From contig NZ_CAJXTC010000002.1 of the NCBI RefSeq assembly GCF_913060805.1, positions 1 to 64,000 of the forward strand: DNA of 64,000 nt. Reading direction: 5' to 3'. The stretch comes from an uncultured Draconibacterium sp. (GTDB lineage Bacteria > Bacteroidota > Bacteroidia > Bacteroidales > Prolixibacteraceae). How positions within the stretch are numbered: the stretch's first letter is position 1; each line of letters opens with the position of its first letter. A program made the position numbers and the translations under genes. A model generated the notes under the pieces. It was given only the letters and a program-made list of their open reading frames with translations, had not been told where the DNA came from and did not search any database. Positions 21,189-25,954 of this stretch are shown here, in pieces.

Positions 21189-23006
21189 ATGTCATTTAAA
21201 ATTTTTTCACTGCAACTTACAGGCAAAATCAAGTCGGTTGAGGTAATCGAGAAAAAGCGCAAGCAATTAGCCGACGATTACGCTGAGTTTTTAAAAACAG
21301 AAAATTCAGAAGAGCTGCAAGCATTTTTAGGGTTGGAAAAATATGTCACTTCCAGTGAATTTGCTTCGAAAAAGAAGGCGGTTGAAGGACAATCGTTTAA
21401 AGGAAGCGAAGAGGAAAAGCAATTAAAAGAATTTCAACGTTTGCAAAAAGCGTCGCGCATAAAGAACTATTTCAAAGTTGAAGGTTCTGCTGATTTGACT
21501 CGTTATGAGAAAGAAAAAGAATCGCAGAAACTTGCCGATTTTTATTCATTGGAAGAATATGTGAAAGACGGCGATTTTGAAAAGGACAAAAAGGAAATTA
21601 AAGCTCAGGTTTTTAAAGGATCGGCAGAAGAGAAGCATTTAAAAGAATTAAAAAAGCTTGAAAAATCGGCCGGTATAAAAGCGTATAACGAGCTGGAAGG
21701 TTCGGAAAAACTGAAGCAACACAAGGCTTTTGAAGCTTCGGACAAAATGAAGCAATATAAGGAGTTAAAAACGGCGGCAGTAAGCGATAGCGAAAAGAAA
21801 AAAGAGTTTAATCGCTTGAGCAAGGATTCGGCAGTTGTAAACTATTTCAAGTTCGAGAAATCAAAAAAACTGAAGTTGTATCACGAGATCAGCGGAAGTC
21901 ACAACCTTGTTCGGTACAATGAATTAAAAGAACAGGTTAACACCGAAGAATTTAAAAAGAAGGTTGCCTTTTTAAAAGACAAGAAGAAGTTTGAAAAAAG
22001 CGAAGCCTACAAAAAATACACCGATTACAAGAAATTAGCCAGCGATTCAGTAGTTACTTTTGTGCTGAAATACGAGAAGTCGAAACTTTATAAAAACTAC
22101 CTCGATGTTAAAGAATCGTTTGATTTAAAACGATATAACGAGTTGAAAGAGTTGATTGAATCGGACGACTACAAAAAGCAAAAAGCGTGGCTGGAAGACA
22201 AAAAACGCTGGGAAAAGACTGAAGACGCCGAGAAGTTCAAGCAATACGAAACTGACAAAAAGAAACCGGAATTTGTAAAATATTTCAAATACAAAGACAG
22301 CACTGATTTTGATTTTTACAAAAACTGGGATGTTGTATTTGATGATTCATTTTCGGATAAAAAACTGGACGATGCCAAGTGGATGACAAGCTCGTTAACG
22401 GCTTCGAAAACTTTGGGCCAAAACTACGCTATGCCAGGCGACTTAAGTGTTTTCACTAATGGTGCCAACATTCAGACAGGAAATAAACTGAGCATCCAGG
22501 TGAAAAAAGAAAGCAAGGAAGGAATGGTTTGGCAAATGCCTGCCGGTTTTGTACAGGCTGATTTCGATTACACTTCGGGAATGATAAGTTCGGGTGAGCA
22601 TTATCAATTCGAAGACGGAATTGTAGAAGCCAAGATTTTCTTTAACCCGGTAAAACAGGTGGCCAGTTCATTTTTCCTTGCCAATGGCAGCAATGTTCCG
22701 CGTGTAAACCTGGTTGAAATGGGAGCAAAAAATATTCTTGGAATTTACACCATGAACGGAAGTGGCAAAATTGCTTCGGAAGGACTGGAAATCAATAACC
22801 TGAAAAAAGGAGCTTATATTTTCTCGCTTGAGAAATCGGGTGCAACTTATACCTGGAAGATCAATGAACAGGAGGTTCTTCAGCTGAACAGCAGCGGTTT
22901 AAATAAACCTTTGGAGTTAAATGCTTCAAGTCTTGTAATTGATAAATTGGCTGGTTCATCAGCCAGCTTTGATGTTGAATGGGTAAAATGCTATCGTAAG
23001 AAATGA
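21189..23006 (+). CDS. 72-residue tandem-repeat protein with degenerate GH16-like domain
   Basis: A 605-residue protein without a signal peptide or membrane segment. Residues about 45-375 are Lys/Glu-rich, predicted helical and repetitive. Equivalent points (KNYFKVEGSADLTRY, KAYNELEGSEKLKQH, NYFKFEKSKKLKLY, KYEKSKLYKNY, KYFKYKDSTDFDFY) fall near residues 92, 164, 218, 290 and 363, mostly 72-73 apart. Residues about 380-605 resemble a GH16/LamG-type jelly roll (VVFDDSFSDKKLDDAKW, SGMISSGEHYQFEDGIVEAK). The GH16 catalytic EIDIxE line reads RVNLVE here, so the nucleophile is missing and hydrolysis is unlikely; it may bind carbohydrate or be structural. It overlaps the PAS gene by 4 nt. Function unknown. 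Confidence 0.75.
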   Translation: MSFKIFSLQLTGKIKSVEVIEKKRKQLADDYAEFLKTENSEELQAFLGLEKYVTSSEFASKKKAVEGQSFKGSEEEKQLKEFQRLQKASRIKNYFKVEGSADLTRYEKEKESQKLADFYSLEEYVKDGDFEKDKKEIKAQVFKGSAEEKHLKELKKLEKSAGIKAYNELEGSEKLKQHKAFEASDKMKQYKELKTAAVSDSEKKKEFNRLSKDSAVVNYFKFEKSKKLKLYHEISGSHNLVRYNELKEQVNTEEFKKKVAFLKDKKKFEKSEAYKKYTDYKKLASDSVVTFVLKYEKSKLYKNYLDVKESFDLKRYNELKELIESDDYKKQKAWLEDKKRWEKTEDAEKFKQYETDKKKPEFVKYFKYKDSTDFDFYKNWDVVFDDSFSDKKLDDAKWMTSSLTASKTLGQNYAMPGDLSVFTNGANIQTGNKLSIQVKKESKEGMVWQMPAGFVQADFDYTSGMISSGEHYQFEDGIVEAKIFFNPVKQVASSFFLANGSNVPRVNLVEMGAKNILGIYTMNGSGKIASEGLEINNLKKGAYIFSLEKSGATYTWKINEQEVLQLNSSGLNKPLELNASSLVIDKLAGSSASFDVEWVKCYRKK

Positions 23007-23356
23007 CGCTGAAAGATTGTGACGTAAACTGGATGGATGGATTTGGTGGAGCGATTACGGTTTGCGATACTGAAGGGATAATTGTTTATATGAATGATTT
23101 TTCCATTCGTCAGTTTGAAAAGTACGGTGGTGAGAAGTTGATGGGAACAAATCTGTTGGATTGTCATCCTGAACCATCGAAAAGCAAACTACGCGAAATG
23201 CTGGCCACGCCCACAGAAAATACATACACCACCGAAAAGAATGGCATTAAAAAGGTAATTACCCAAAAGCCGTGGATGGAAAACGGTAAATTTTGCGGGG
23301 TAGTTGAACTGTCGTTTGAGCTACCTTCAGGGATTGAAAATCACCTTCGTAGTTAA
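23003..23356 (+). CDS. Small PAS-domain protein
   Basis: A 117-residue protein that is essentially one PAS fold: FGGAITVCDTEGIIVYMNDF, RQFEKYGGEKLMGTNLLDCH, then the beta sheet ending FCGVVELSFEL. There is no output domain, so it would sense a ligand or bind a partner. The ATGA overlap with the upstream repeat protein implies strictly coupled expression and probably a shared task. Ligand unknown. Confidence 0.78.
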   Translation: MTLKDCDVNWMDGFGGAITVCDTEGIIVYMNDFSIRQFEKYGGEKLMGTNLLDCHPEPSKSKLREMLATPTENTYTTEKNGIKKVITQKPWMENGKFCGVVELSFELPSGIENHLRS

Positions 23357-23369
23357 TCTATGTCTTGAC

Positions 23370-25658
23370 TTACAAACCTCGTTTGTTGAATAAGATGTAT
23401 CCAAAATTCAGCGTGACGTAAAGGTTGGTATTGCTCTTTTCGTAATAGTTAAACGAGAGGCTCACCGGGCCAATTCCGGTTTGATAAACCAAAGCCGCCA
23501 GTCCCTGTAGATAATAATTATTGATAAAATCATCACTTTTAATAGCTGTAAGATCCGGTTGTTCCAACTCTTCGTGAATGGGGCAAAATCCATATCCTTC
23601 AACGCGAAGATGCCAATCGGGCGAGAATTTGAATATGGCTTTTAATCCTCCTGCCAAATAATTATTCGAATTAAATTCGTTAATAAACAGGGACTTGCTA
23701 TGTGGCGAGGGTGTAAATCCCTGGGCCGAAAGTTTCGTTGATCGATAGGTTTGAAACAAGCCTTTTGAACTTAAAAATGATTCGAGGTGTGTACCCAACA
23801 CAAAATGTTCACCCAACGAAAAATAGCGTAACGAGTGGGCATGAAGCTGAAAATAATTGTGATTGAAAAATTTTGTAGAGTAGGGGGTAATACTTCCTGC
23901 TGTGTATTTTTCTTCGCCAATTACAAATCTGCCATCAATTCCACGGTGAGCGCCTTCTGTTGCGTACTGCTTGTAGTTCAGTGAGTTATTCTCGAAACCA
24001 ATCTTCGATACAAATGCATTGAATTTTGAATTGTTGGGCGTATTTCCTTCTTCCGATTCATCGGTTTGGTAAAAATCGTTGCTTGCCGACGAATAAGCCA
24101 ATCCTGCATAAATTTTACTGTGTAAGCCCAACGGAAAACCGGTTTCCAGCCTGAAGTTGGTTTCATCTTTAATAATGTATGGCGTGTGTACGTCCTCAAA
24201 AATCAGCTCCGTACTCGACGAAAAATAATCCCACCGGTTAAAAGTTAAATACGACTCGAGGTAGAAAGGTAGCGCAGTCGGATAATCGATGCGGCCACCC
24301 AGTTTAAATGAACTGTAAAATCGTCCGAAATAAATGTTCGAATGAAGCGAATACGCTCTGCTGTTGTAACTTCTGAAATTAATGGCAGCAAATCCCTGGT
24401 TAATGGGTTTAGTAGAAATATTACCGCCAATACTCAAATCAAGGCGTTTTTCAGGCTCTACTTTTAAATGCAGGTCGAAATAACCGGTGCCGGGATTGTA
24501 GCGCGTAATCGGTTGTATGGACTTCAGTTGTTCATCGGCTACGAGTTTAAAATACTCGGTTTTTAAGCTGGATAACGATACAACGTTATTCCGGTGTTTA
24601 ATACTTTGGATGATAAATTGACGTTGCATGGGGTCGCTAACACCTTCAACCTGAATGTTTTGAAAGTTTAGTTCCGGTTTCCGAGCATTAAAACTATCGC
24701 GTTTTGCCTGAACTTCTTCTTTGGGGACACGACGTTTTATCAGTTGTTTTATACTATCTATTTTGGCCAGTGTAGTTTGTTCTCCGCGAGCCAAAACCGT
24801 ATCAATTTTATTAAAATCGAGTAGACCAACATTTTCAAATTTTGTTTCCAGCAAAATTCCATCTGATGGTTTAATTTCGAAATTAGTTGGGCGCATAACC
24901 ATGTTCGAGATTTGACGCATAACATCGTCGGCGTCGGCAGCTTTTACATCGTCGGCAACTTTATGCCCGATAATAATATCCGGGTTAAAAATCTCTTTCA
25001 TGTGGTCGGTAGGGAAGTTGTTCAGCAGACCTCCGTCGAACAACAATTTTCCATCAATTTCAATGGGTTTAAAATAGAGAGGAACTGTCATTGACGCCCG
25101 CATTGCATTTCCTAGATCACCATCGCGCAACACCAGCGGCTTGCTGTTGTTTACGTCGGCGGCAATACAAAAATAAGGCACCATTAACTGGTTAAAATCG
25201 TAATTACAGGCGGCGCTGGTTGCTGCTGTTAATTCCATAAAAGCAAAATCCATCTGTTCGCCGGGGATTATATTGGTTGGTGGCAGAATTTTAACTTTTT
25301 CATCTTTTTTGGCTACGCGCAGTTGCACCCATGTCGGATCGTCTTCCTGACGTTTAAAATAATAACGGTATTCGCGTTGAATTTTTCCGGTCGACCAGAA
25401 ATAGAAATCATCCGACTTAAAAAGTTCTTCCATCTCGTCGGTTGAATAACCGGCAGCATAAAGACCGCCAACAATCGCACCTATTGAAGTTCCTGAAATA
25501 TAGTCGATTGGGATGTTGTTTTCTTCCAAGACCCGGATCACGCCAATATGGGCCATTCCCTTGGCGCCACCGCCGCTAAGCACAAGCCCAACCGACTGCG
25601 CATTGCTCTGTACAACCGTAAAAGTACATAACAGGATAATAAGTAGCGATCTATTCAT
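23370..25658 (-). CDS. Patatin-like phospholipase with outer-membrane barrel domain
   Basis: A 762-residue protein. The signal peptide MNRSLLIILLCTFTVVQSNA starts at the ATG at 25658; a longer frame from 25703 would hide it, so I reject it. The patatin domain (about 25-220) has the oxyanion loop LSGGGAKGMAHIG, the nucleophile motif GTSIGAIVGG and DGGLLNNFP, so the Ser-Asp dyad is intact. After a POTRA-like stretch (about 310-390), the C-terminal half is a series of amphipathic strands ending in YVTLNFGYILF, an Omp85/BamA-like barrel. It is expected to be a surface or outer-membrane lipid hydrolase similar to PlpD-type proteins. Confidence 0.92.
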   Translation of the reverse strand: MNRSLLIILLCTFTVVQSNAQSVGLVLSGGGAKGMAHIGVIRVLEENNIPIDYISGTSIGAIVGGLYAAGYSTDEMEELFKSDDFYFWSTGKIQREYRYYFKRQEDDPTWVQLRVAKKDEKVKILPPTNIIPGEQMDFAFMELTAATSAACNYDFNQLMVPYFCIAADVNNSKPLVLRDGDLGNAMRASMTVPLYFKPIEIDGKLLFDGGLLNNFPTDHMKEIFNPDIIIGHKVADDVKAADADDVMRQISNMVMRPTNFEIKPSDGILLETKFENVGLLDFNKIDTVLARGEQTTLAKIDSIKQLIKRRVPKEEVQAKRDSFNARKPELNFQNIQVEGVSDPMQRQFIIQSIKHRNNVVSLSSLKTEYFKLVADEQLKSIQPITRYNPGTGYFDLHLKVEPEKRLDLSIGGNISTKPINQGFAAINFRSYNSRAYSLHSNIYFGRFYSSFKLGGRIDYPTALPFYLESYLTFNRWDYFSSSTELIFEDVHTPYIIKDETNFRLETGFPLGLHSKIYAGLAYSSASNDFYQTDESEEGNTPNNSKFNAFVSKIGFENNSLNYKQYATEGAHRGIDGRFVIGEEKYTAGSITPYSTKFFNHNYFQLHAHSLRYFSLGEHFVLGTHLESFLSSKGLFQTYRSTKLSAQGFTPSPHSKSLFINEFNSNNYLAGGLKAIFKFSPDWHLRVEGYGFCPIHEELEQPDLTAIKSDDFINNYYLQGLAALVYQTGIGPVSLSFNYYEKSNTNLYVTLNFGYILFNKRGL

Positions 25659-25954
25659 AGGGTCAATTGTTTTCTGAACGCTATCAAAATTACTAAAAAA
25701 CAAGTGTATGTTAAATACGCTTATTCCTAAATCTTATTAAAAACTGATTAAATTCAGCTGTTTTTCTAATAAAGACAGAAAAATACTCGCAGAGGTTGCT
25801 TTCGTGTATCATAATTTCCTAAACAGTACTTTTATTAATAGTTTTGTTAAAGAGCGGTTTTCGCTCCTGAATTCTTAAATTGCTTTTCAGGGTAAAACCG
25901 GTTTGAAGTGTTTTGATATACAAATGATAACTGGCTTCGATTAAAAGTTAACGC

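Follow-up and report, generated by a model that had tools for sequence, protein, structure and literature searches.

What does a GH16-like protein do when it carries no apparent export signal and its gene overlaps with the gene for a PAS-domain protein? The question is raised by two neighbouring genes in a 64,000-nt stretch of DNA from an uncultured Draconibacterium sp. (the window), whose positions are used as coordinates below. The genes encode P0001, a 605-aa repeat/pseudo-GH16 protein, and P0002, a 117-aa PAS protein. The home family is Prolixibacteraceae, the order is Bacteroidales, the class is Bacteroidia and the phylum is Bacteroidota. The two open reading frames and their 4-nt overlap were found as initially annotated (Table 1).

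Table 1. Features of the repeat/pseudo-GH16 gene and the PAS gene, with positions in the window.
Feature	Position	Strand	Basis
Repeat/pseudo-GH16 gene, P0001, 605 aa	21189..23006	+	ORF and translation; homologues; dN/dS
N-terminal segment, residues 1-33, short hydrophobic/amphipathic, without apparent cleavable signal peptide	21189..21287	+	N-termini of 88 members, hydropathy scan
Repeat region, residues 34-376	21288..22316	+	Self-comparison; family-wide period of 12; iterated motif model
GH16-like jelly roll, residues 380-605, predicted from its sequence to be catalytically dead	22326..23003	+	PDB profile search; hhalign
Insertion preceding the YTSG strand, residues 445-459, pattern GxxWxxxxGFxPxxF	22521..22565	+	Conservation in 39 members versus 22 controls
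Degenerate catalytic line RVNLVE, residues 505-510 (active GH16: EIDIME)	22701..22718	+	Alignments
ATGA overlap, stop and start codons of the P0001 and P0002 genes	23003..23006	+	Sequence
Stand-alone PAS gene, P0002, 117 aa	23003..23356	+	ORF; Pfam; aligned relatives

The repeat region

The nearest named relatives are Draconibacterium sediminis (93% identity) and D. mangrovi (92%). The dN/dS ratios of the P0001 gene against two congeners are 0.052 and 0.056, and that of the PAS gene against one congener is 0.047. In remoter comparisons silent sites are saturated, with pN/pS of 0.18-0.29. The ratios indicate that the P0001 gene is under strong purifying selection. A defence-system reading was dropped as PADLOC models gave no match at E<=0.01, and so was a phage-protein reading, as P0001 had no match in PHROG; P0002 had one, with an E-value of 0.064. 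On the opposite strand, a convergent gene for a patatin-like phospholipase lies at 23370-25703. Its relatives adjoin the repeat gene in 25 of the 108 loci mapped, which argues that the chromosomal place of the repeat gene is old.

The initial annotation had described four to five Lys/Glu-rich repeats of 72 residues, and five blocks can be recognized. By our reading of the motif starts, they span residues 34-105, 106-177, 178-230, 231-303 and 304-376. Of these, the third is short, and the last two each have 73 residues. The mean self-similarity of residues 1-372 is maximal at an offset of 72 (0.30), but this is not decisive by itself, because the highest value of 500 shuffles was 0.37. Without gaps, the region matches itself with top scores of 177 (offset 73) and 173 (offset 72), whereas none of 200 shuffles gave a score above 78. 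A tandem array at the DNA level was considered and dropped, since only one trifling 15-base repeat is present.

In the mean of 69 sequences of the family, an offset of 12 stands out most, followed by 24, 6 and 72. An iterated model from 30 diverse members yielded the 12-residue motif [YLF]xx[LF]xx[ST]xE[LFIY]Kx in 594 windows, with total information of 9.8 bits. Shuffled runs reached 3.6-3.9 bits (n=10), the real and shuffled runs both being seeded with nine P0001 windows. Motif starts in P0001 are mostly spaced 15-18-15-12-12, and therefore the 72-residue block corresponds to five motifs; each block except the short third holds about five. The region is 22% Lys with a pI of 9.2.

A profile check of the repeats had been proposed together with their description. 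The repeat profile found no match in PDB at E<=10, and among 33 members compared with Pfam none of its families was matched by more than one, so that an assignment to a known (helical) repeat family was dropped. The repeat domain, found in neither Pfam nor PDB, is new as judged by these searches. Repeats and GH16-like domain share a single frame at 29 of 29 order loci examined (84 genomes positive), three of them cut by contig ends, and none of the 29 joins the repeats to another C-terminal domain.

The GH16-like domain and its lost active site

P0001 alone matched no Pfam family at E<=1. Divergent members of its family are more informative: PF00722 was matched by 23 of 39 at E<=0.1, with a best E-value of 6.1e-16, and the NCBIfam EglC model NF052454 by 25 of 39 at the same threshold. 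The family profile retrieved GH16 laminarinases first in PDB, with an E-value of 8.7e-21. In hhalign against 18 ordinary GH16 sequences, the divergent domain alignment reached 99.9%, and a 19-sequence alignment led by P0001 reached 99.3%. The GH16-type jelly roll proposed in the initial annotation is thus supported at the level of sequence profiles. Among the closest known proteins are bacterial GH16 laminarinases and EglC-type beta-glucanases (such as PDB 4dfs and 3azx; NF052454), to which the P0001 family is similar over the whole length of the jelly roll. It differs from them in the incomplete triad, the N-terminal repeats, the insertion before YTSG and the lack of an apparent signal peptide.

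The alignments place the line RVNLVE of P0001 on EIDIME of active enzymes, as the initial annotation had read it. The Glu-Asp-Glu triad is complete in none of 89 scorable members. Three further members of the 92 distinct ones could not be scored, since L007 is frame-broken and L142 and L152 are at contig ends. The triad is also absent in L063 and L087, which lack a repeat match and stand outside the 89. Among 22 jointly aligned ordinary GH16 proteins, one of which is cut short, it is complete in 21 of 21 scorable. Thirty residue combinations occupy the triad positions in the 89 members, and the third position is Glu in P0001 and its close relatives. The GH16-like domain is accordingly predicted to be catalytically dead.

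In the insertion, G453 is invariant and W448 and F454 are at least 90% conserved in 39 members. The same site in the 22 controls is empty in 20, holds four residues in L116 and has a different insert in L002. By our reading, Trp107, Pro108, Trp111, Glu127 and Asp129, invariant in 18 controls, correspond to Ala, Ser, Phe, Arg and Asn in P0001. With these residues replaced, the glycan binding suggested earlier finds no positive support. The window's genome also encodes ordinary GH16 proteins with an intact catalytic line (G000:C7:51981-52574 and G000:C13:8253-8600).

An export signal is usual for GH16 enzymes. In agreement with the initial annotation, no signal peptide is apparent in 88 N-termini of the P0001 family, as judged from hydropathy rather than by a trained predictor. 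The N-terminus of some members is short and hydrophobic, with a 12-residue mean of up to 2.21.

Distribution and neighbouring genes

P0001 was matched in 64 of 101 genomes including the window's own; by our count, these are 53 of the 61 home-family genomes and 11 of the 40 from the rest of the order. Across the order, the repeat profile matched 84 of 344 sampled genomes and did not match 260. In the class sample of 295 genomes it matched two, namely the window's own and another of the order; no repeat match outside the order was found in this sample. The whole profile matched 138 of 247 genomes in the phylum sample, where among the matches listed all but the window's own gene fall in the GH16 part of the profile. 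The family tree, a quick one, largely follows genome groups by our reading. Our searches of open-access literature found no description of the repeat/pseudo-GH16 family. At the sequence level, we consider it a solid result that the family is a conserved GH16 pseudo-enzyme specific to the order, combined with a new repeat domain and lacking an apparent export signal.

The orthologue is split into several frames in L007 (6001-7796; Draconibacterium orientale, NZ_CP007451.1) and in L035 (G029), both from single-contig genomes. The breaks may be real, or they may be assembly errors in a Lys-rich and hence A-rich gene.

P0002 by itself scores 19.9 bits against Pfam PAS_4, below the cut-off of 23.1, but of 10 relatives compared with Pfam 7 score above a PAS cut-off, the exceptions being L120, L127 and L065. 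Like other stand-alone PAS-domain proteins, P0002 has a single PAS-like domain and an ordinary length. It differs from them as a distinct family with Cys54-His55, invariant in 16 aligned relatives, which is tied to the P0001 gene in one bacterial family.

The PAS gene was matched in 39 of the 101 genomes. All 30 home-family genomes that have it carry the P0001 gene directly upstream on the same strand (our count), and in at least 16 of the 30 the 4-nt overlap is as in the window. No PAS match was found in 23 of the 53 home-family genomes with a P0001 gene, and eight further home-family genomes have neither. Outside the home family, the PAS gene occurs in nine genomes of the order; P0001 is unmatched in eight of these, and in one (G084) it lies elsewhere in the genome. 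Counted by distinct locus, the PAS gene is adjacent at 31 of 83 with enough downstream sequence. The linkage changes 10 times on the tree, which indicates that it was lost or gained repeatedly. The coupling of the two genes that had been proposed therefore stands for the home family, but not as a general rule. As 23 of 53 home-family genomes have no PAS match and eight genomes outside the family have no P0001 match, the PAS protein is one optional partner. For the same eight genomes, the PAS gene was dropped as a marker of the system.

In nine order genomes the Cys-His PAS family occurs alone (L120-L128), with no constant neighbour in the fetched flanks by our reading; these flanks contain no repeat or GH16-like frame. 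In Draconibacterium sediminis (L004, 7812-8060), the PAS gene is frame-broken, with an 82-aa frame, and the repeat gene upstream is intact.

Other signalling genes were sought among the ORFs mapped around the 108 loci. The wider set consists of 81 loci (L066-L086 and L158-L217), several of the home family included, and the classes covered were kinases, regulators and SiaC, detected by phmmer with seeds confirmed by Pfam. Of 138 same-strand ORFs in positions -1 to -3, 31 belong to these classes, compared with 8 of 510 ORFs in the remaining positions (Fisher p 1.1e-15, with loci that are not independent and counts inflated by related genomes). By locus, a same-strand signalling gene is upstream at 16 of 81, and none is detected by these seeds at 65. 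Pfam recognized histidine kinases, regulators and SiaC among ten neighbours scanned. Recurrent same-strand linkage to genes for PAS proteins, SiaC or two-component proteins is observed.

At six loci, the order is kinase, regulator, SiaC and then the repeat/pseudo-GH16 gene. The gap between SiaC and the repeat gene is 17-22 nt in all six, by our arithmetic with the start at the first Met. On the quick tree, in which 35 of 103 inner branches are weakly supported, the SiaC linkage changes twice and the kinase/regulator linkage five times. The six SiaC-type genomes (G084, G695, G739, G639, G865 and G789) contain 16-17 SiaC copies in five cases and 15 in one, to our knowledge an unusual expansion. 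The abundance of SiaC there and the commonness of kinase genes weaken the linkage to signalling genes as evidence.

The arrangement is reminiscent of the SiaABCD partner-switch pathway of Pseudomonas; likewise, the repeat gene is directly 3' of the SiaC gene in two order-level groups. SiaC binds and activates SiaD, the product of a neighbouring gene (PMC8457831; PMC7647112), and is switched by phosphorylation in Pseudomonas (PMC7647112), and DUF1987/SiaC proteins were proposed to modulate adjacent proteins (PMC8457831). In contrast to that pathway, the SiaC neighbour here is the repeat/pseudo-GH16 protein, and a histidine kinase and a regulator are upstream of SiaC. A search that detected SiaC in all nine other genomes covered gave no match in the window's genome.

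Possible functions

P0001 could well be a cytoplasmic, non-enzymatic scaffold or binding protein working with signalling proteins, the explanation that we favour, though tentatively. It is supported by the triad (0 of 89 against 21 of 21), the low dN/dS, the constant position of the PAS gene (30 of 30), the upstream enrichment of signalling genes and the lack of an apparent signal peptide. It is weakened by the 65 of 81 loci without a signalling gene upstream, the 23 of 53 genomes without the PAS gene and the restriction of signalling loci to few lineages. The functional part, a cytoplasmic scaffold tied to signalling, is based on gene order and is plausible. The partners and the ligand of P0001 considered here are putative. 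The 12-residue motifs may form short helices capped by Ser/Thr, and a stack of these would give a basic rod or solenoid. The GH16-like domain would be a module that binds protein or possibly carbohydrate. Owing to the ATGA overlap, the PAS protein is probably co-translated; it may be a sensor of a small molecule or of redox state (Cys21, Cys54-His55) and would dock on P0001; in other lineages SiaC or a response regulator may take its place.

With a pI of 9.2, the repeat region might also bind to RNA, DNA or membranes. It is rather unlikely that P0001 is a housekeeping protein associated with nucleic acid, ribosome or membrane, in which the Lys-rich repeats act and the signalling neighbours are incidental. 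The Lys content, the lack of a recognized signalling neighbour at most loci and a tree that by our reading largely follows genome groups are consistent with such a role, but signalling genes are enriched in one direction and the PAS gene keeps its position, both of which speak against it. Moreover, the 260 of 344 order genomes without the family indicate that P0001 is not essential housekeeping. It is unlikely that P0001 exits the cell without a classical signal peptide and is a lectin-like or structural surface protein, with repeats holding anionic polysaccharide and a jelly roll binding glucan as in insects. The putative partners are of cytoplasmic types (SiaC, response regulators and the PAS protein), the cleft residues are replaced, and no signal peptide is apparent in the members scanned, although the fold is that of secreted glucanases and some members have the short hydrophobic N-terminus. 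Insect beta-1,3-glucan recognition proteins are a precedent, as inactive GH16 proteins whose fold serves recognition and binding (PMC9459437). Compared by description, they have a signal peptide and CBM39, neither of which is apparent in P0001, and the P0001 family differs from them in sitting among cytoplasmic signalling genes.

P0001 is very unlikely to have remained an enzyme whose catalytic residues have moved or changed; the Glu at the third triad position favours this, but an active site that is maintained would not be expected to vary freely over 30 combinations. If the gene were a GH16 pseudogene in decay, the missing catalytic residues and the broken frames in Draconibacterium orientale and one other genome would be explained. 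This explanation is extremely improbable and was dropped, being contradicted by dN/dS and conservation: most members have a single open frame, and the breaks may be assembly errors.

Beyond the scaffold or binding role of P0001 itself, a wider proposal is possible, though we regard it as doubtful. The new helical repeat of 12-residue motifs and a GH16 fold recruited to the cytoplasm from secreted glucanases may constitute a new intracellular signalling module of one order, a general adaptor for lineage-specific sensors such as the PAS protein, the SiaC phosphoprotein and two-component regulators. The host group is known for polysaccharide degradation. If the proposal is true, the family would show clearly, for bacteria, that the fold of secreted sugar-degrading enzymes can become intracellular and non-catalytic, and the change of signalling partner from lineage to lineage would make its function directly testable by pairwise binding.
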